From the NCBI GenBank assembly GCA_022787165.1, contig JALFVL010000038.1:1-64000 (forward strand): a stretch of DNA of 64,000 nt, in the 5' to 3' direction. This stretch comes from Clostridiales bacterium (GTDB taxonomy: Bacteria; Bacillota; Clostridia; Christensenellales; Aristaeellaceae). The notes below the pieces were generated by a model, which worked only from the letters and a program-made list of their open reading frames with translations, had not been told where the DNA came from and did no database searches. Made by a program: the position numbers and the translations under genes. Below are positions 7,033 to 43,878 of this stretch, one piece after another; the stretch's first letter is position 1, and each line of letters opens with the position of its first letter.

Positions 7033-8364
7033 TCAGAGCAGGTCCTCCGGCTCGTCGCCTTCCGCAAACTCAATTTCCTCGGCAGCGTTTTGTCTCGCCT
7101 GTACCGGGGCTTCCACCGTTTTCTCCTGCGCGGCGGGTTCCTCCGCAATCAGGTCAATCGTCTGCACGGAAGTCTCCGTCTCCTCGAACAGGATGGCGGC
7201 CTCCTCTGCCTGACGCAGGTTCGGTTCTGCCGAACTCCGTTCAGCCTCCGGCGCCATTTCCTGCCGATCTGCCGGCCAGGGCCGCGCCTCAGGCCTGCGC
7301 GGCGCCTGCCCCTGCTGTTCAGGTCTGTCGCCCTGTCCGCCGCGGCGGGGCGGCTTGTCCCCGCGGCGGGGCTTGCGTTCGTCGCCGCTCTCGGGCCGCG
7401 GACGCTCCCTGCGCGCGCCGCCCTCCTGCCTGCGTTCCGCCCGCTCGCCGCGTTCGCCCTTCTCGGGCTTCTCGCCGCGCTCTGGCCGCCGTCCCTTCTC
7501 GGGCTTCTCGCCGCCCTCGGGCTTCTCCGGGTGGGGCGCGGCGCTCTGTGCGTCCTGCGCCGGGCGCAGGCAATCGTCGATCGCGTAATCGCGCAGCTCA
7601 AACGAATCGCCAACCGCAATGCGCACCCGGACGCGCTCCTCAAGCACATTGATCGCGTTGATCGTGCCGACGCCATCGGGCGTGATAATCTCCCTGCCCA
7701 CGCGCGGCATGCGCTTGCGCGTCGTCTCATATTGATCCTGCTCGTATTTCAGGCAGCACATCAGCCGGTCGCAAAGGCCGGAGATTTTGGTCGGATTGAG
7801 CGAGAGATTCTGCTCCTTCGCCATCTTGATGGACACGGGCGTAAAGTCGCCCAGGAAGGAGCGGCAGCAGATCGGCCGCCCGCAGGGGCCGATGCCGCCG
7901 AGCATCTTCGCCTCGTCGCGAACACCGATCTGGCGCAGCTCAATGCGCGTCTTGAAGATACCCGCCAGATTCTTGACCAGCATTCTGAAATCGACGCGCC
8001 CGTTGGCCGTAAAATAGAAGATGATCTTGGAATGATCAAACGCGTATTCAACATCCACCAGCTTCATCTCGAGCTTGTGATCCGCGATGCGCTCCAGCGC
8101 GATGTCGAAGGCATCCTTTTCATATTGCTCGTTTCGCCTCTGAATCGCCAGATCCTGCTCTGTCGCAATGCGGATGATCGGCTTGAGCGGGGAGACGATG
8201 TTCTCGTCCGGCATCTCCATCACGCCGGACATGCACTCGCCCAGCTCCACGCCGCGCGCGGTCTCCGTCACGACGCTCATGCCGGTATGCAGCTCAAGCC
8301 CGTTCGGGTCAAAATCATATAGCTTGCTGGCGCGCTTGAAGCGCACCCTGACTACCATTGCCAC
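7033..8364 (-). CDS. ricT: RicT (YaaT, PSP1 domain) with long disordered tail
   Basis: A 443-residue protein. The first ~265 residues are a PSP1/YaaT domain: VVRVRFKRASKLYDFDPNG, YFTANGRVDFRMLVKNLA, then the cysteine motifs PCGRPICC and CDRLMCCLKYEQ, which bind an Fe-S cluster in the Bacillus RicA-RicF-RicT (Y-) complex. That complex assists RNase Y in mRNA processing and affects sporulation and biofilm formation. The remaining ~175 residues are low complexity, first R/E/G/K/P-rich (EKGERGERAERR) and then acidic, unlike the short tail of Bacillus YaaT. ATG 8358 overlaps the holB stop; GTG 8364 has GGAGG ten bases upstream and is preferred. It is the last gene of darA-holB-ricT. Confidence 0.88.
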   Translation of the reverse strand: MAMVVRVRFKRASKLYDFDPNGLELHTGMSVVTETARGVELGECMSGVMEMPDENIVSPLKPIIRIATEQDLAIQRRNEQYEKDAFDIALERIADHKLEMKLVDVEYAFDHSKIIFYFTANGRVDFRMLVKNLAGIFKTRIELRQIGVRDEAKMLGGIGPCGRPICCRSFLGDFTPVSIKMAKEQNLSLNPTKISGLCDRLMCCLKYEQDQYETTRKRMPRVGREIITPDGVGTINAINVLEERVRVRIAVGDSFELRDYAIDDCLRPAQDAQSAAPHPEKPEGGEKPEKGRRPERGEKPEKGERGERAERRQEGGARRERPRPESGDERKPRRGDKPPRRGGQGDRPEQQGQAPRRPEARPWPADRQEMAPEAERSSAEPNLRQAEEAAILFEETETSVQTIDLIAEEPAAQEKTVEAPVQARQNAAEEIEFAEGDEPEDLL

Positions 8365-9335
8365 TTTGCATATTCCTCCGAAACCTTTAACAAAACCGTC
8401 TCCAGTGCCGAGGCGAAGGCGACGTTGCTGCCCAGCATTTTGCGGGCCTGCGTCACCTGCCGAGAAAGCGCTATTCCGCCCTCCGGCGGCACCGCGCGCG
8501 CATAGGCCTCTGCCTCCGCTGCATAGCCTGCGCCCTCCAGCGGCGATCCGCCGGACTGCGCGATCAAAATATCCCGCACAGCGCACTCGAGAACATCCAT
8601 CACCAGCGCCTGCCGCTCCTTGTCCTCCTTGTAGCGGTTAACCACCGCGAGTGCGCCGGACGGGCTGTGAACCGAAAAGACGTCCTTCGTCAGCGTCTGC
8701 CGGAGGGAAAGCTGCTCCTCGTCGATGGCAAGCGCCTGTCCCACACAGCCCTCCGCCATGCGCGCGCGCCGCGCCGCGTCCTGCGCGCCCAGCCCGAGCG
8801 CACGAAGCCGCGCCTCGGTCTGCTCCTGGGAGAGTGGATGAAAACGGATGACGCGGCAGCGCGAGACGACGGTCGGCAGCAGCGCGCCGGGCTGATCGGT
8901 CATCAGAAAGAAGACCGTCCCGGCGGGCGGCTCCTCCAGCGTCTTGAGCAGACAGTTCTGCGCGGCAGGCGTCATCCGCTCCGCCTCAGGAAAGAGCATG
9001 ATCTTCGCCCCGTCCTCAAAGGACTTGGTGCCAACCTCGTCAATGGCCTCGCGCAGCACATCCACGCCGATCGTCTTCTTGCCCTTTTCGGGCTCCACCG
9101 TGTGAACGTCAGGATGCGTACCCGCGAGCACCCGCCGGCACGGGCCACAGACGCCGCAGGGCTTTTTCTGTCCCTTGCACAGCGCCGTCATCGCGCACAG
9201 GCGCGCGACGCTCCGCTTGCCCGTTCCCTTCGGCCCGGCCAACAGATAGGCATGAACAAAGACGCCCCGCTCAAAATCGCTGTGAAGCCTGGCGATATGC
9301 GCGCTCTGCCCCTCAAAATCCTCAAACGCCGGCAT
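8352..9335 (-). CDS. holB: DNA polymerase III delta' subunit
   Basis: A 327-residue clamp-loader subunit. Seen: a P-loop GPKGTGKRS (about 34-42), the zinc module CKGQKKPCGVCGPC, GTHPDVHTVEP, and the sensor region AAQNCLLKTLEEPP followed by VVSRCRV. Delta' works with the tau/gamma and delta subunits to load the beta sliding clamp in the replisome. It starts three bases after the darA stop and overlaps ricT at its end. The order darA-holB-ricT matches Bacillus yaaQ-(yaaR)-holB-yaaT. Confidence 0.93.
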   Translation of the reverse strand: MPAFEDFEGQSAHIARLHSDFERGVFVHAYLLAGPKGTGKRSVARLCAMTALCKGQKKPCGVCGPCRRVLAGTHPDVHTVEPEKGKKTIGVDVLREAIDEVGTKSFEDGAKIMLFPEAERMTPAAQNCLLKTLEEPPAGTVFFLMTDQPGALLPTVVSRCRVIRFHPLSQEQTEARLRALGLGAQDAARRARMAEGCVGQALAIDEEQLSLRQTLTKDVFSVHSPSGALAVVNRYKEDKERQALVMDVLECAVRDILIAQSGGSPLEGAGYAAEAEAYARAVPPEGGIALSRQVTQARKMLGSNVAFASALETVLLKVSEEYAKWQW

Positions 9336-9338
9336 GCC

Positions 9339-9671
9339 TTACACCTTCAGGAACTGGCTGACCTCCAGCACAAAGACCGTCGCGCCGCCCACCGTCACGC
9401 GGATCGGATACGGCACATAGACGCCGCCCGCGCCGCCGCTCATCGGGGTTGTCGACGCGGTGATCTGCTCCCGGCTCTTGCAGATTTTCTCGATGATCGA
9501 GAGCGCCTCGTCAAGCTTGTCGTCCTCTACGCCGCTGATCAGCGTCGTATTGCCCGCGCGAAGAAAACCGCCGGTTGTCGCCAGCTTCGTCACGCCAAAT
9601 CCCTTATCCATCAGTGCGGAAACCAGACGGCCCGCGTCCTCGTCCTGCACAATCGCCACAATCAGCTTCAT
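9339..9671 (-). CDS. darA: Cyclic-di-AMP receptor DarA (PII-like, YaaQ)
   Basis: A 110-residue protein starting MKLIVAIVQDEDAGRLVSAL, followed by GFGVTKLATTGGFLRAGNTT and LISGVEDDKLDEALSIIEKI. This is the PII-like trimer that binds c-di-AMP. The upstream ORF extension is rejected because GGAGG precedes ATG 9671 and the length equals the family's ~109 residues. It heads the darA-holB-ricT unit. In Bacillus tmk stands directly upstream of this gene; here it does not, and thymidylate kinase is found fused to a HAD domain at 36977-38278. Confidence 0.94.
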   Translation of the reverse strand: MKLIVAIVQDEDAGRLVSALMDKGFGVTKLATTGGFLRAGNTTLISGVEDDKLDEALSIIEKICKSREQITASTTPMSGGAGGVYVPYPIRVTVGGATVFVLEVSQFLKV

Positions 9672-9737
9672 CAATCTATTTCCTCCAATCAATCCGGCAG
9701 CCGTCCGACCGGCGGAAGGCATGCCGTGGAAGTACCG

Positions 9738-9799
9738 CTGTGCCCTCCCGGCACAGTTAGGTCTGCTTCTATTATACAGGATTGCGCGCCAAAAAGCTA
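9738..9799 (-). promoter_or_regulatory. Probable promoter and hairpin leader for darA
   Basis: Minus strand TATAAT at 9776-9771 sits 17 bases after a weak -35 (TAGCTT). The leader that follows contains CTGTGCC / GGCACAG (9738-9756) as a perfect seven-base stem with loop GGGAG, then further GC-rich hairpins before the ribosome site. I could not match the leader to a known riboswitch. Confidence 0.5.
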
Positions 9800-9813
9800 G
9801 TGTTTCCTCCCGC

Positions 9814-11187
9814 TCAGCCAATCAGGATGGAGACAGCCTCGGCCAGCGTTTCCACACCGTAAATGCGCATGCCCTCCATCTTGCCAAGGCTCCTCGCGTT
9901 TTCCCTGGGCATGACGCAGGTCGTAAAGCCCAGCCGCCTGCACTCTGCCAGCCGCCGCTCCGCCTGCGAGATGCCGCGAATCTCCCCTGCCAGGCCGACC
10001 TCGCCCATCACGGCCCAGTCGCCCGGGATGCAGACCTCCCGCACGCTCGAGGCAACGGCGGCGCAGAGCGCCAGATCCGCCGCCGGCTCGCTGAGCGCAA
10101 GACCGCCCGCCACGTTGACATAGACGTCCTGCCCCAGCAGCGCGATGCCCGCGCGCTTTTCCAGCACGGCCAGCAGTAGCGCCAGGCGTCCGGCATCAAA
10201 GCCGTTGGAGGTGCGTCTGGGCATGCCGTAGGCCGTCTGAAGCGCGAGCGCCTGCACATCGACAAGCATCGGCCGCGAGCCCTCAATCGCGGGATGAACG
10301 CAGGAGCCCGGCACGTTGCGCGCCCGCTCCGAGAGCAGCGCCTCCGAGGGGTTGAGCACGGGCGTCATACCCGTCTCCCGCATCTCAAAGAGACCCAGCT
10401 CGTTTACCGAGCCAAAGCGGTTCTTGACCGCGCGCAGAATGCGGTACTGATGCTGATGGTCGCCCTCGAAGTAGAGCACGACGTCGACCATGTGTTCCAG
10501 CACCCGGGGGCCGGCGATCGCGCCCTCCTTGGTCACATGCCCGACGAGGAAGACGGCGCAGCCCGTCGTCTTTGCCATGCGCATGAGTAGGCTGGCGCAT
10601 TCGCGCACCTGCGACACGCTGCCCGGCGCGCTGGCCATGTCGGGTCTGTACATTGTCTGAATCGAGTCGATCACCATGTAATCCGGCTGTATCTCCTCCC
10701 AGCGCCTTTCCGCCGCGTCCATCGCGTTTTCGCTGAGGATGAAGAGGTTTTCGCTCGCCACACCCAGCCGTCTGGCGCGCATCTTGATCTGCCGCGCCGA
10801 CTCCTCGCCAGAGACATACAGCACGCGCGCGCCGCTTTTGGCCAGATGCTCGCAGGCCTGCAAAAGCAGCGTCGATTTTCCGATGCCGGGGTCGCCGCCC
10901 ACCAGCATGAGCGAGCCCTCGACCACGCCGCCGCCAAGCACGCGGTCGAGCTCCTCGATGCCCGTCGTTGCGCGCACGGCGCTCTCCTCGGGGATCTGCG
11001 ACAGCCTGAGCGCCTGCGCGCCCGTTCCGGGCCGCTGCTTGATCGCCTTGACCGGCGCGGCCTGCGCCGCCTGGGGCGCCTGCTCTTCCAGCGTGTTCCA
11101 GGCCCCGCAGCCCGGGCATTTTCCCATCCATTTCGCCGTCTCATAGCCGCACGCGCTGCACTGGTATATGGTCTTTTCCTTTGCCAT
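9814..11187 (-). CDS. radA: DNA repair protein RadA
   Basis: A 457-residue protein: an N-terminal C4 zinc finger (YQCSACGYETAKWMGKCPGC), a RecA-like ATPase with Walker A GGDPGIGKST and a Walker B-like YMVIDSIQTM, the RadA-specific KNRFGS motif, and a C-terminal Lon-like S16 domain (GQDVYVNVAGGLALSEPAAD). It processes branched DNA intermediates by extending strand exchange during recombinational repair. Start 11187 follows GGGAGGAAAGC; the ten extra ORF-track residues lack a site. Confidence 0.96.
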   Translation of the reverse strand: MAKEKTIYQCSACGYETAKWMGKCPGCGAWNTLEEQAPQAAQAAPVKAIKQRPGTGAQALRLSQIPEESAVRATTGIEELDRVLGGGVVEGSLMLVGGDPGIGKSTLLLQACEHLAKSGARVLYVSGEESARQIKMRARRLGVASENLFILSENAMDAAERRWEEIQPDYMVIDSIQTMYRPDMASAPGSVSQVRECASLLMRMAKTTGCAVFLVGHVTKEGAIAGPRVLEHMVDVVLYFEGDHQHQYRILRAVKNRFGSVNELGLFEMRETGMTPVLNPSEALLSERARNVPGSCVHPAIEGSRPMLVDVQALALQTAYGMPRRTSNGFDAGRLALLLAVLEKRAGIALLGQDVYVNVAGGLALSEPAADLALCAAVASSVREVCIPGDWAVMGEVGLAGEIRGISQAERRLAECRRLGFTTCVMPRENARSLGKMEGMRIYGVETLAEAVSILIG

Positions 11188-33291: not shown

Positions 33292-33339
33292 TGCAGGGGG
33301 AGGAAACATGCATTCTCCCTTTTGACCCGGGGCAGCGGC

Positions 33340-33360
33340 TGCGCGCCTTTGCAGCGCGCA
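33340..33360 (+). repeat. GC hairpin in the collagen-gene leader
   Basis: TGCGCGC pairs with GCGCGCA around CTTTGCA, about 40 bases before the start codon. Confidence 0.55.
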
Positions 33361-33399
33361 TGCTCAATCCCCCTCCTTAAAAGAAAGCAGGTGGCAATT

Positions 33400-34413
33400 T
33401 TGCCCTTCCATGTTGCCCGATCCCGCTGCGGCTGGCCCTCCGGCTGCGGCAGCTTCCATTCCTCTTGTGGCTTCGCCTCCGGCCGTTCCGGCTGCGGCTG
33501 TTCCAATTGGGGCTGCTCACATTGTGGATGTACGGAATGCGGAACCACGAATTGCGGCTGCTCAAATGGCGGCTGCACGAACTGCGGCTGCTCGAATAGT
33601 GACGGCTGCGCCCCTTCCTGGGGCTGCTGCTCAGGCTGCGACTGTGCCTGTGCCCAGGGGCCAGTTGGCCCAAGAGGCCCGCAGGGTCCTGTCGGCCCAA
33701 CAGGGCCCATGGGCCCTGCGGGACCACAAGGCCCTCAGGGGCCGATCGGTGAAACCGGTGCGACTGGCGCGACCGGCGCGACTGGCGCGACCGGGCCTCA
33801 GGGACCTGCTGGGCCTCAGGGGCCTGCTGGACCGCAAGGCCCTGCCGGTGAGACCGGTGCGACCGGGCCGCAGGGACCGCAAGGACCCGCCGGGCCGCAA
33901 GGCCCTGCCGGTGAGACCGGCGCAACCGGTGCGACCGGCGCGACCGGTGCGACCGGGCCGCAGGGGCCTGCTGGTCCTCAGGGACCGGCCGGGCCGGCCG
34001 GAGAGGGCATCGCAGCCTATGCGACAGGCTACAACACCGGCACGCTGACCGCGACCGCAAACACGCCCATTCCCTTCGCGAATTTCGTTTCCGAGCCTGC
34101 GACATCGGTCACGCAGTCCTCCGGCACGTTTACGCTGAACGAGGCCGGCACGTATCTGGTCACGGTGCTGCTGAACCTGCCCTCGCAATCGAACGTCAAC
34201 ACGACGTTCCATCTGCGCGCAGACGGCGACATCCTCCCTGAGTCACAGACGCGCGTCGTCTCTCCCTCGAATACGACCTCGCAGACGCTCTCCTCCATCG
34301 TCGACTCCACCGGCACGACGACCGTCTCGCTGACCGCCACCAGCGCGCTCAACCTGACCGGCAGCGCAACGACCGACGTGCTGGCGACCATCACCTTCCT
34401 CAAGCTGAACTGA
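33400..34413 (+). CDS. Collagen-like, cysteine-rich protein (probable spore-surface filament)
   Basis: A 337-residue protein in three parts. Residues ~9-84 hold 20 cysteines in patterns such as [15 protein letters not shown] and [10 protein letters not shown]. Then 38 uninterrupted Gly-X-Y triplets (nt 33658-33999), mostly GPQ, GPA, GAT and GET. The last ~135 residues form a BclA-like globular end ([38 protein letters not shown]). In Bacillus and Clostridioides, proteins of the BclA kind make the hair-like outer layer of the spore; collagen stretches trimerise and GXT threonines are glycosylated. The N-terminus is set by AGGTGG five bases before TTG 33400; no ATG is available. Cysteine-rich heads are known in clostridial exosporium proteins, so crosslinking to the coat is plausible. 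Confidence 0.85.
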
Positions 34414-35856: not shown

Positions 35857-36963
35857 TCATTTCTTCATCTGTATGCCCGCATCGGTCACCTCGTCGCAGA
35901 CCGCGCCGCCCAGACAGACCTCGCCCTGATAGAAGACCATGCTCTGCCCCGGCGTCACGGCGCGCTGCGGCTCCTTTGCCTCGACATGCACGCGCCCCTG
36001 CGGCAGCAGCGTCACATGCACGGCCTGATCGCCCTGCCGGTAGCGGTATTTGCAGGTGCAGTCGAATTCCTGTGCCGGGGGCTCGCCCGCGATCCAGGTC
36101 GCGCCGCTGCCCAGCGCGTTGCGGCTGTAGAGCAGTGGATGGTCTGCGCCGCGCGCAACGATGAGCCGGTTGTGCTCCATGTCCTTGGCCAGCACGAACC
36201 AGCGGCCCTCGCCCGCCTCGCCCTCGACGCCGCCGATGCCCAGCCCGCGCCGCTGGCCGAGCGTATAATACATCAGACCGTCGTGGCGGCCGACGACATG
36301 CCCCTCAAGCGTCACCATGTCGCCCGGCTGTGCCGGCAGAAACTGCTGCAAAAACGGCTTGAAGCGCCGCTCGCCGATGAAACAGACGCCGGTCGAATCC
36401 TTCTTGCGGCTGTTCGTCAGTCCCGCCTGCGCGGCGATCTCGCGCACCTGCTTTTTCGTCAGATGGCCGACCGGGAACATCGCCTTTTCAAGCGCATTCT
36501 GAGCGAGCATGTAGAGAAAATAGCTCTGATCCTTGCCAGGGTCTGTTCCGCGCAGCAGCTGCCTTTTCCCGTCCGCCTCGCCAAGCCTACAAAAATGCCC
36601 GGTCGCCAGGGCATCCGCGCCCAGCGCCATCGCGTAATCGAGAAACGCCTTGAATTTGATCTCCCGGTTGCAGAGCACGTCCGGGTTGGGCGTGCGCCCG
36701 CGCCTGTATTCCTCCAGAAAATACGAGAACACGCGCTCCTCATATTCCCGCACGAAGTTGACCGCATAATAGGGAATGCCGATCGTGTCACAGACGCTGC
36801 GCACGTCGGCCCAGTCCGTTTCGCTCGTGCAGACGCCGTTTTCGTCCTTCTCCTCCCAGTTCTTCATGAACACGCCGATGACCTCGTGCCCCGCGCGCTT
36901 TAAAAGCAGCGCGGCCACCGAGGAATCGACGCCGCCCGACATGCCCACGACAATCCTTGCCAT
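35857..36963 (-). CDS. mnmA: tRNA 2-thiouridine(34) synthase MnmA
   Basis: A 368-residue enzyme: PP-loop VVGMSGGVDSSVAALLL, GVFMKNWEEKDENGVC, RTPNPDVLCNREIKFKAFLD (first catalytic cysteine), LATGHFCRL, KDQSYFLYML, KDSTGVCFIGERRFKPFL (second catalytic cysteine) and LGQRRGLGIGG. It thiolates U34 of tRNAs for Lys, Glu and Gln. It lies 13 bases after the HAD-Tmk fusion. No iscS-like cysteine desulfurase is adjacent. Confidence 0.96.
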   Translation of the reverse strand: MARIVVGMSGGVDSSVAALLLKRAGHEVIGVFMKNWEEKDENGVCTSETDWADVRSVCDTIGIPYYAVNFVREYEERVFSYFLEEYRRGRTPNPDVLCNREIKFKAFLDYAMALGADALATGHFCRLGEADGKRQLLRGTDPGKDQSYFLYMLAQNALEKAMFPVGHLTKKQVREIAAQAGLTNSRKKDSTGVCFIGERRFKPFLQQFLPAQPGDMVTLEGHVVGRHDGLMYYTLGQRRGLGIGGVEGEAGEGRWFVLAKDMEHNRLIVARGADHPLLYSRNALGSGATWIAGEPPAQEFDCTCKYRYRQGDQAVHVTLLPQGRVHVEAKEPQRAVTPGQSMVFYQGEVCLGGAVCDEVTDAGIQMKK

Positions 36964-36976
36964 GCTTTGCCCCCGA

Positions 36977-38278
36977 TCAGCTCAAACCGTTGGTTTCCTC
37001 CTGCGTGCAGCCCAGGCGCCCGTCCACCGCAAGGAGCATGTCCTGTGTGACGTCCTCGATCGCCTGCGCGGCGTCGATGGTCACAACCCGCTCCATGCCT
37101 GCCTGCGCATAGAGTGTCTCATAGGCCTCATAGGTGCGCATAAAGAAGGCCTCCTTCTCGCGCTCGAGCCGGTCAGGCTCGGAGGCGCTCAGACGGCGCA
37201 GAAGCGCCTTCTCCGGCGGCATGCGCAGATAGACCGTGATGTCCGGCCAGGTATCGCCGACCGCCTCGCGGTTGATGCCCAGCACGCGCTCAACGCCCAG
37301 CTGCCTTCCGCCGCCCTGATACGCGGCGGAGGAATCGACAAACCGGTCGCAGACGACCGCCTTGCCCTGCGCAAGCGCCGGACGGATCAGCGCCCGAACG
37401 TTCTGCGCGCGGGAGGCGGCGTAGAGATACGCCTCCGTCTCGTCCTGCATCGCGGTGTTCGCCGGATCGAGGATCAGCTCGCGAATCTTCTCCGCGATCC
37501 CGTCCCCGCCAGGCTCACGCGTCGTCAGAACCTCCCAGCCCAGACGGCCGAGATGGCGGACGAGCGCCTCGCGCTGGGTCGTCTTGCCGCAGCCGTCGAC
37601 ACCCTCCATCGACACGAAGATTCCCCGCGCCCGGGGCGCGTCGCCCAGCAGGAGGGCGTCAAGCTCCGCCACGCTGTGCGCAATGTACGTCGCGCCTGCC
37701 GTGCGCAGCTCTTCCTCCGTGCCGTAGCCGTAGGTCACGCCGATGGTGTCGATGCCGTTGCCCGCGCCGCCCTCGATATCGTAGCAGCGGTCGCCAATCA
37801 TGACGCACCGGCCGCCGAGCAGTGCCATCGCCCTGCCGACGATTTCGACCTTGCTGGCATGCTTCGTATCCATGCCCGGGCCGACAATCGCGTTAAGATA
37901 TGGCGCCATGCCGAATTTTTTTGCGATCCGCTCGGCAAAGATCTGCGGCTTCGCCGTCGCAATGGCGACCTTCGCGCCGTTGAGCTTCAGGCTCCGCAGC
38001 AGCGCCGCGATACCCGGATAGACCTCATTTTCCGCCCAGCCGACGCGCGAAAAGCGCTCGCGATACAGCGCCGTCGCCTGCTGCGCCTGCATATCATCCA
38101 TGCCCACGATCGTCCGGAAGGAATGATACAGCGGCGGGCCGATGAAGGCCTTGAACTGCTCCTGGGTATAGCCCGTAAATCCCATCTTCTCCGCGGCGTA
38201 GAGCGCAGAGCGGGTGATGCCCTCCTCCGAACGGGTGAGCGTTCCATCCAGATCAAACAAAATCGTTGTATATGTCAC
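36977..38278 (-). CDS. tmk: HAD phosphatase - thymidylate kinase fusion
   Basis: One continuous 433-residue frame. Residues 1-213 are a HAD-superfamily phosphatase (motif I ILFDLDGTLTRS; VAIATAKPQIFAERIAKKFG; acidic motif VMIGDRCYDIEGG; GVTYGYGTEEEL), close to phosphoglycolate-phosphatase types. Residues ~219-425 are a complete thymidylate kinase (GIFVSMEGVDGCGKTTQRE; TTREPGGDGIAEKIRELIL; CDRFVDSSAAYQGGGRQLG; ITVYLRMPPEKALLRR). Tmk makes dTDP from dTMP and is essential, and no other tmk is in the window. The start is GTG, overlapping the upstream stop, with GGAG nine bases ahead. A second, separate HAD of similar type lies at 43159. Whether both halves are active cannot be told, but both motif sets look intact. 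Confidence 0.93.
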   Translation of the reverse strand: MTYTTILFDLDGTLTRSEEGITRSALYAAEKMGFTGYTQEQFKAFIGPPLYHSFRTIVGMDDMQAQQATALYRERFSRVGWAENEVYPGIAALLRSLKLNGAKVAIATAKPQIFAERIAKKFGMAPYLNAIVGPGMDTKHASKVEIVGRAMALLGGRCVMIGDRCYDIEGGAGNGIDTIGVTYGYGTEEELRTAGATYIAHSVAELDALLLGDAPRARGIFVSMEGVDGCGKTTQREALVRHLGRLGWEVLTTREPGGDGIAEKIRELILDPANTAMQDETEAYLYAASRAQNVRALIRPALAQGKAVVCDRFVDSSAAYQGGGRQLGVERVLGINREAVGDTWPDITVYLRMPPEKALLRRLSASEPDRLEREKEAFFMRTYEAYETLYAQAGMERVVTIDAAQAIEDVTQDMLLAVDGRLGCTQEETNGLS

Positions 38279-39105
38279 GCTTTTCGTCTCCGTCTTTTCC
38301 GTTGATCCATCCCGGACGCTTCGTCGCGGGGCTTAGAATCTGTCTTTTTATCGGGCTTCCTGCGCGCCGTTGCCTCCCGCGCCTGCCGCAGCGCGTCCTC
38401 GTCGACCAGCGGCCTGACATAGGGGTACAGCGCCGGAAAGGCCCGCTGCAGCGCGCGCGCCCAAAGCGTCGTCTTTTCCCCGCGCTGCGCACGGTCGTCG
38501 AGGCCGAAGGCCTGCGGCAGCGCCGTGCTCAGCGCGTCGCAGAAGGCCTCGTCCGGGCAAAAGACGCAGCAGCGAAGCGCACCGCTTTCCTCAAACACAA
38601 TGGCATGGCCGATGATCGCCCCCGCCTGCGCGCCCGCCAGAAGCCGGGCCAGCCGGGCAGAAAGGAGGCTCGCGGCAAACGCCGCGCGCGCGCGAAATGG
38701 CGAGCGCGCCTGCGGGTCGATGGCCGTCACCTGGCGGTAATACAGGTGAAGCCGCTCGGCCGCCGCGACCGGCCGGATGGCGCGGATCGCCCCAAGCGGA
38801 ATCTCGATCACGGAGGTCGTGCTGTCCCCGAGCATCTTCTGCAAAACGAGCGTCTCCTCCTTGAGGGTGTAGACGGTGCCCGCCACAAACCGCTGCATGA
38901 AGCGCAGCATCAGCACGACGGCGTAGATGTAAAACGCGACGTTGATCAGCCCAACGCCCGTCAGCACGATCAACAGATTGACGGCAATCTGCGCGATGGC
39001 CAGCCGCGCGATCACACCGGCGACGCCGAGCAAAAAGCCCTTGCCCGTCGGCGGCTGCGCTGTCCTCTTCTGTACGGCCGTGATGGCTTCAATCCGCTTG
39101 TCCAT
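38275..39105 (-). CDS. Hypothetical membrane protein, possible PH-like domain
   Basis: A 276-residue protein of unrecognised family. Two membrane helices (about 25-70: FLLGVAGVIARLAIAQIAVN, LTGVGLINVAFYIYAVVLML) are followed by a domain reading AGTVYTLKEETLVLQKMLGD and SVIEIPLGAIRAIRPVAAAE, the layout of a bacterial PH-like (DUF304-type) domain; this is inference. The rest is helical and ends in a very basic, likely disordered tail (MDQRKRRRRKA). ATG 39105 follows AGGAGG. It overlaps the HAD-Tmk start (GTGA) and so is translationally coupled to it. Confidence 0.65.
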   Translation of the reverse strand: MDKRIEAITAVQKRTAQPPTGKGFLLGVAGVIARLAIAQIAVNLLIVLTGVGLINVAFYIYAVVLMLRFMQRFVAGTVYTLKEETLVLQKMLGDSTTSVIEIPLGAIRAIRPVAAAERLHLYYRQVTAIDPQARSPFRARAAFAASLLSARLARLLAGAQAGAIIGHAIVFEESGALRCCVFCPDEAFCDALSTALPQAFGLDDRAQRGEKTTLWARALQRAFPALYPYVRPLVDEDALRQAREATARRKPDKKTDSKPRDEASGMDQRKRRRRKA

Positions 39106-39164
39106 GCTCCTCCTGCCCCGCCGATCATCGTGGGGAATGCCGTGTGTTTTGCTCGGGCGGGGAA

Positions 39165-39503
39165 TCAATCCTCCGCCAGTCCGCTGCGCTCCAGAAAGTC
39201 CTGCTGCGCCGCCATGTAGGCGTCCAGCCGCTGGGCCAGCGCGTTGAGCTCGTCCTCGTCGTCCGTCCCGTCCGCCAGGCGCTCCAAAAGTACCTCAAAC
39301 GCCTCGTCGTCGTCGTATTCGCCCTCGCCCATATAGCCCTGCTCGTCGAGCACGCCGGTCTCCTGCATGTAGCGGAAATCCTCGTCGATGGCGCGGCGGA
39401 CGAAGGTCTCCAGCTCCCCGCGCGGAGCGCGCACGCCGGTCTTCGTCATCGCCGCGGCGATGAAGGGCACAGCGGCTTCAATATCGTAGCCCTGCATGAT
39501 CAT
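39165..39503 (-). CDS. Small acidic hypothetical protein
   Basis: A 112-residue protein, helical and strongly acidic (GEYDDDEAFEVLLERLADG, TDDEDELNALAQRLDAY), of no family that I recognise. No signal peptide or helix for membrane insertion. Its ATG overlaps the pepF stop (ATGA) with GGGGAG upstream, so it is translated with pepF. Such small acidic partners may regulate or stabilise a neighbour, but nothing shows which. Confidence 0.7.
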   Translation of the reverse strand: MIMQGYDIEAAVPFIAAAMTKTGVRAPRGELETFVRRAIDEDFRYMQETGVLDEQGYMGEGEYDDDEAFEVLLERLADGTDDEDELNALAQRLDAYMAAQQDFLERSGLAED

Positions 39504-43158: not shown

Positions 43159-43878
43159 TTACGCGCTCTCGCGGATCACGCGCAGGCAGGCCTGCGTCAC
43201 CTCATCCGTCGTCCCGCACAGGCAGTCCGCCCCGGCGAGCTCCTCCCGCGTGCCCAGCCCGTAGGTCACGCCGACGGCATAAGCCCCGGCCAGCCGGGCG
43301 TTTTCGATGTCCGTGCAGCGGTCTCCGACGACGATGACGCGCCGCGCCCCCAGCTCCCTCTCCCACATGGCGATACGCTGCGCCTTTGTGACGCCGCTGA
43401 CATGGCCGCTGTGCAGCGAGATATACGGCGCGATGGCAAATGCCGCGATGTTCGCGTCACAATAGCTGCCCGTCCCGTTGGTCAGAATCGAGAGCACCGC
43501 GTGCGGCGCCAGCGCTGCGAGCATCTGCGCCGTGCCGGGAAACATCCTGCCCGCGCTGCGCACCAGCTCCACGTCCGTCTCGTCGAGCAGCCTGTTGTAC
43601 AGCGGCCGCCTGTCCGGCCCGATGCCCATGACGCGGCAGACCTCGTCGGCGTCCGGTCCATTGAAGGAATCGGCCAGCTCGTCAGAAATCTCGCCAAAGC
43701 CCATCAGCGCAAAGACGCGCTTGAAGCTGATGCGCGCGAGCTCCTGGCTGTCGGCGATCGTGCCGTCCAGATCAAAGACGATCAGCACGGGCCGCTGCGC
43801 CTGTGCCGGAGCCAGCGGCGCGGAGCGGACGGTGTCCATTCCGCAAGGAACGTTTTCTGCAGTCTGCTTCATCGGCAT
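43159..43878 (-). CDS. HAD-superfamily phosphatase
   Basis: A 239-residue protein with a ~28-residue N-terminal extension and then a HAD core: VLIVFDLDGTIADSQELARI (motif I), AVLSILTNGTGSYCDANIAA (motif II), VIVVGDRCTDIENARLAGAY (motif IV) and GVTYGLGTREELAG. Cap type I, phosphoglycolate-phosphatase-like. It is similar in order and wording to the HAD half of the Tmk fusion, so the two are probably paralogues. It is coupled to fbp by a TAATG overlap; a role in sugar phosphate turnover is a guess from that. Confidence 0.88.
   Translation of the reverse strand: MPMKQTAENVPCGMDTVRSAPLAPAQAQRPVLIVFDLDGTIADSQELARISFKRVFALMGFGEISDELADSFNGPDADEVCRVMGIGPDRRPLYNRLLDETDVELVRSAGRMFPGTAQMLAALAPHAVLSILTNGTGSYCDANIAAFAIAPYISLHSGHVSGVTKAQRIAMWERELGARRVIVVGDRCTDIENARLAGAYAVGVTYGLGTREELAGADCLCGTTDEVTQACLRVIRESA

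Follow-up and report, generated by a model that had tools for sequence, protein, structure and literature searches.

One minus-strand frame in the window (the 64,000-nucleotide stretch analyzed here) joins a HAD phosphatase to a thymidylate kinase (Tmk), and its sequence indicates that this is a well-conserved fusion of two intact enzymes that has evolved repeatedly from a coupled pair and is apparently undescribed in the open literature that we searched. The explanation that we favor, in which our confidence is about even, is that the protein is bifunctional, combining the sole recognizable dTMP kinase of the genome with an active and independent HAD-IA phosphatase that is itself a 5'-nucleotidase, and that it arose by the joining of translationally coupled neighbors.

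The fused gene and its two halves

An earlier, sequence-only reading placed the gene correctly at 36977-38278 and left its strand unsaid; a plus-strand reading of this interval was rejected as an antisense ORF. That reading had also claimed complete HAD and Tmk motif sets in one frame. All of the named motifs were found and the profile tests agree, in support of a real fusion of two enzymes whose active sites are both intact (Table 1).

Table 1. Features of the window discussed in the text
Feature	Position	Strand	Remarks
Fused HAD phosphatase-thymidylate kinase gene	36977..38278	-	433 aa, GTG start; ORF list, Pfam, TIGR00041
HAD subfamily-IA phosphatase half, residues 1-213	37640..38278	-	Pfam HAD_2; predicted catalytic D9, D11, T108, K143, D163, D167; model match 3mc1
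Thymidylate kinase half, residues 219-420	37019..37624	-	TIGR00041; sole PF02223 of genome; model matches solved TMKs
297-aa ORF upstream of fused gene	38275..39168	-	4-nt overlap (GTGA) with start of fused gene
mnmA (tRNA 2-thiouridylase; name from sequence)	35857..36963	-	13 nt downstream of fused gene
darA-holB-psp1 cluster, usual tmk site	7033..9821	-	Here without tmk; other families have tmk within or next to the cluster
Second HAD protein, 239 aa, distant relative of fused HAD	43159..43878	-	Identity, residue, and profile comparison

By motif and fold, the N-terminal half is a phosphatase. Residues 6-181 match Pfam HAD_2 (89 bits, cut-off 23.8), which assigns them to HAD subfamily IA, and the frame contains DLDGT (9-13), ATAKP (approximately 107-111), and GDRCYDIE (162-169). 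Residues D9, D11, S/T108, K110, K143, D163, and D167 are kept in all 68 fused proteins checked (63 from family f1, 4 from f23, and 1 from f33). This half is approximately 45% identical to stand-alone HADs of other Clostridia, and its fold is alike over its whole length to those of 3mc1 from C. acetobutylicum (43% identity, TM 0.91) and 3sd7 from C. difficile (38% identity), which have no kinase attached and were deposited merely as predicted or putative phosphatases. None of the curated HAD equivalogs reaches its cut-off with the fused HAD: PpaX pyrophosphatase (NF009804) scores 94 bits against 218, phosphoglycolate phosphatase (TIGR01449) scores 79 against 180, and the YjjG nucleotidase (TIGR02254), of which the fused HAD is not a member, scores 21 against 159.9.

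The assignment of the C-terminal half to Tmk is firm on profile and motif evidence. Pfam Thymidylate_kin covers residues 225-413 (163 bits, cut-off 27), and the score of 183 bits for the TIGR00041 dTMP kinase family, against a curated cut-off of 83.25, places the protein within it. The motifs GVDGCGKTT (226-234), TREPGG (253-258), and DRF (311-313) are present, and the invariant positions of alignment A1 comprise the P-loop from G226 to K232 (with V227 and C230 varying), R254-G258, D311-R312, and D369-R370-E372. Motif set and fold are like those of solved TMKs from P. aeruginosa, S. aureus, and E. coli, with approximately 40% identity to 4edh over about 210 residues. A PF02223 search of the 2.49-Mb genome returned the fusion as its single match, and the fusion is therefore presumably the cell's dTMP kinase. 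ThyX and Tdk are also encoded, and no match to ThyA was found in the genome. In contrast to an ordinary bacterial thymidylate kinase, this one is preceded in the same chain by a HAD phosphatase of 213 residues, and its gene adjoins mnmA instead of darA-holB.

Across eight pairs of fused genes, the HAD half has dN/dS values of 0.05 to 0.25, lower than those of the Tmk half in seven pairs; these ratios and the retained residues show, at the level of sequence, that both halves are under purifying selection and that both active sites are intact. An AlphaFold model built with 21 related sequences has a mean pLDDT of 90, a pTM of 0.87, and a confidently predicted linker, and the orientation of the two domains in it is no more than suggestive. 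Foldseek matched solved HADs (3mc1 and 3sd7) and solved TMKs separately, with no listed structure spanning both halves.

The GTGA overlap with the 297-aa ORF and the close spacing to mnmA indicate that the fused gene lies inside an operon. The gene order, including this ORF upstream, is conserved in relatives, and mnmA occurs in the flank of 47 of the 63 fused loci of family f1. The earlier observation that darA at 9339 stands without tmk was borne out, the cluster being radA-darA-holB-psp1. The two ORFs 5' of the fusion (38275-39168 and 39165-39503, minus strand) keep the same order in close relatives and gave no match in a Pfam search.

Distribution and origin of the fusion

The families of the genome set are labeled f1, f2, f10, f15, f21, f23, f32, and f33, with f1, a large family of gut bacteria, the family of this genome, and one genus is labeled g107. 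A related-locus search yielded 14 fused relatives at 49 to 76% identity, including Candidatus Ventricola intestinavium and many ruminant-gut MAGs. We searched 300 genomes of f1 for PF02223: among the 150 matches listed, 148 sit in an open frame that is 422 codons or longer, and the other two seem to reflect the end of a contig (G247) and a break in the frame (G167). All sampled f1 genomes except G205 match the fusion profile A1 across both domains. The sequences show the fusion to be near-fixed in f1, and it occurs also in f23 (G071, G090, G108, G136, and G451) and f33 (G056). The sequence-only reading had proposed a search for the fusion in related genomes and had named a stop or frameshift at the junction, or absence from all relatives, as its refutation. 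Both checks left it standing: the fusion is conserved across f1 and in some members of f23 and f33, and the junction is read in the same frame, without a stop or frameshift, in independent assemblies of many species; an assembly artefact was rejected because so many independent genomes carry the fusion. Samples of the class and the phylum (391 and 399 genomes, including some order genomes already sampled) were searched with a threshold of E <= 1e-80 (fused proteins give values below 1e-150) and yielded matches to the Tmk half only, apart from two f1 genomes. As far as this sampling goes, the fusion is therefore apparently restricted to this order.

Unfused members of the order point to how the fusion may have arisen. 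In f2, f15, f21, f23, and f33, a HAD gene lies directly 5' of tmk, either overlapping it by ATGA or separated from it by a short gap (e.g., L078, L064, L059, and L058). HAD adjoins tmk in 10 of 23 unfused loci in the order versus 0 of 17 outside it (Fisher p 0.002, uncorrected for relatedness). The pairs of f2, f15, and f21 adjoin holB-psp1, and in f33 both the unfused pair and the G056 fusion lie beside darA (and holB-psp1 where the contig reaches). The adjacent HADs of f2, f15, and f21 score 122 to 209 bits on the fused-HAD profile, below the fused HADs of f1, and may be different HADs from the fused one. Tandem pairs of HAD genes 5' of tmk were observed in families f2 and f15 (L052:2102-3569 and L063:134-1475).

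The f33 fusion is sister to an unfused pair of its own genus (100/100), and a single origin of all fusions was rejected, since the Tmk halves do not form one clade (AU p 0.019, quick tree); together these results imply at least two independent fusions. Fused and unfused states are both present in f23, whose linkers are shorter. Within f1, a single origin is not rejected (p 0.5), and the g107 Tmks stand apart from other f1 Tmks (quick tree). A Shine-Dalgarno-like start near the junction, from which a free Tmk might be translated, turned up in no more than 9 of 84 fused loci (duplicates among them), which argues against an internal start as a general feature. In family f32, a Tmk lies in a 497-codon frame (L113:1454-2944, G140), which may be only a long open frame; the approximately 300 codons upstream of its Tmk gave no Pfam match.

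The sequence-only reading had derived the fused domain from a duplication of the second HAD in the window, at 43159, which then became joined to the kinase. This was not supported, and we rejected the second HAD as the donor: the two are only 29% identical, against approximately 45% for stand-alone HADs of other Clostridia, the lysines K110 and K143 of fused HADs are replaced in it by G and R, and it scores 75 bits on the fused-HAD profile, against 233 to 305 for the fused HADs of f1. A HAD gene already beside tmk in relatives would be a simpler origin.

Loss of the kinase half in genus g107

In nine g107 genomes, a stand-alone HAD ends where the kinase would begin, and the only Tmk is a divergent one located elsewhere. 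This protein of about 220 aa (L120:1483-2142, with equivalents in L121-L127 and L129) is dTMP-kinase-like and falls below the NCBIfam cut-offs; family f10 likewise has only low-scoring Tmk matches. In the HAD tree, the shed copies nest inside the fused g107 clade at no fewer than three places. When G250 (fused) is compared with G288 (shed), the flanks are mostly 92 to 95% identical, and the approximately 730-nt kinase stretch of G250 is reduced in G288 to about 200 nt, including a 119-bp remnant at 75% identity. The nesting and the remnant together set the direction of change, from fused to shed. One further candidate for a shed HAD, L179 (G160), was set aside because it groups with a Rhodanobacter HAD.

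In pairs that include a shed copy, the HAD dN/dS is 0.07 to 0.27, with one pair at 0.43, so that purifying selection is clear in most of them, and the catalytic residues are as invariant in shed copies as in fused ones. The retention of the HAD half after loss of the kinase implies that the HAD has a function that does not need an attached kinase. As the kinase was lost in at least three lineages with the HAD kept, coupling of the two activities is not obligatory, which weakens any strict balance device.

A separate feature of g107, the genus that sheds the fused kinase, is a ThyX with two tandem Thy1 domains in one frame of approximately 446 codons (G250:C2:167634-168842, G288:C31:19587-20795, and G205:C92:2279-3475).

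Possible role of the phosphatase half

In the mechanism that we propose, a HAD gene and tmk, neighboring and translationally coupled, would have been joined into one polypeptide, with the unfused HAD-then-tmk state apparently persisting in other families of the order. The HAD half, as a putative 5'-nucleotidase, would remove dTMP or wrong (d)NMPs, such as dUMP and damaged or analogue nucleotides; it would thereby oppose or proofread the kinase and send nucleosides back to salvage, where thymidine could be rephosphorylated by the genome's Tdk. Fusion on more than one occasion from genes that were already neighbors suggests that both enzymes probably act on related nucleotides. From the tmk association, the repeated fusion, and the HAD-IA precedent of YjjG, we infer that the HAD half probably acts on monophosphates resembling dTMP, as a 5'-nucleotidase or in house-cleaning. 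The dTMP/dTDP balance or house-cleaning role put forward by the sequence-only reading is plausible. That a single bacterial chain, at the final committed step on the way to dTTP, runs opposed dTMP reactions or proofreads dTMP against damaged dNMPs and dUMP, and that this evolved more than once from gene pairs of one kind, is a more tentative proposition that we think is rather less likely to be right than wrong.

YjjG of E. coli, also a HAD-IA protein, hydrolyzes dTMP, dUMP, and UMP and acts in house-cleaning in vivo (PMC8475336; also PMC12715507); it is thus a precedent for dTMP and dUMP hydrolysis, although the fused HAD lies outside the YjjG family. Plant AtFMN/FHy, which unites an FMN hydrolase with a riboflavin kinase (Sandoval and Roje 2005, as cited in PMC9678776), likewise holds a phosphatase and a kinase with opposed activities in one chain; according to that citing account, its kinase is a riboflavin kinase and not a Tmk, it is eukaryotic, and its activities were measured, whereas the Clostridiales fusion is known from sequence. 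Baculovirus fusions of tmk to pnk 3'-phosphatase and to dut (PMC4895240) also join Tmk to a nucleotide-metabolism or phosphatase domain but are viral, with other partner domains and from another lineage. Searching the open-access literature, we found no earlier report of a HAD-Tmk fusion and no biochemical data on the fused-HAD group. A 5'-nucleotidase-like HAD family, cd04302, which includes P. aeruginosa PA0065, is said to act on UMP, IMP, and TMP. Our search of the open literature for PA0065 and HAD_5NT returned nothing.

The main competitor to a nucleotidase role, less probable in our view but deserving weight, is that the HAD half acts on an unrelated housekeeping substrate (phosphoglycolate, pyrophosphate, or a sugar phosphate) and that the joining of two overlapping operon genes was neutral or served to couple their expression. 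The nearest curated profiles are indeed PpaX and phosphoglycolate phosphatase, though far under their cut-offs; for genes that overlap by ATGA or lie a few bases apart, little change is needed to become fused, and the HAD is retained by itself where the kinase half has gone. Chance joining fits less well with the recurrence of HAD-tmk adjacency in five families and of fusion in three, with a gene that is still fused at its mnmA site away from the darA-holB cluster, and with near-fixation across f1. It is improbable that the HAD half instead serves to fold or regulate the kinase, with catalysis of minor importance: the short, confident linker and the pTM of the model would suit a fixed domain arrangement, but fused and shed copies alike keep every catalytic residue, the HAD outlasts the loss of the kinase, and its dN/dS is the lower of the two halves in nearly every fused pair. 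We consider equally unlikely a strict substrate cycle in which kinase and phosphatase share a dTMP pool and regulation requires their physical coupling, for although HAD-IA nucleotidases can accept dTMP (PMC8475336), the plant enzyme is a fusion of such a type as described in PMC9678776, and Tdk is present to close the cycle, the kinase half was lost independently at least three times with the HAD retained, and G205 has no Tdk match.

The repeated fusion and long-standing tmk adjacency are a strong hint, of the Rosetta-stone kind, at what a common group of clostridial HADs, represented here only by structural-genomics entries, acts on. If that substrate is a dNMP, the only dTMP kinase of family f1 would be physically linked to a step that sanitizes or brakes. 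The kinase-shedding lineages are ready-made controls.

Elsewhere in the window, 33322-34413 (plus strand) encodes a protein of collagen-like GXY repeats that matches BclA_C weakly, comparable to spore-surface or exosporium proteins.
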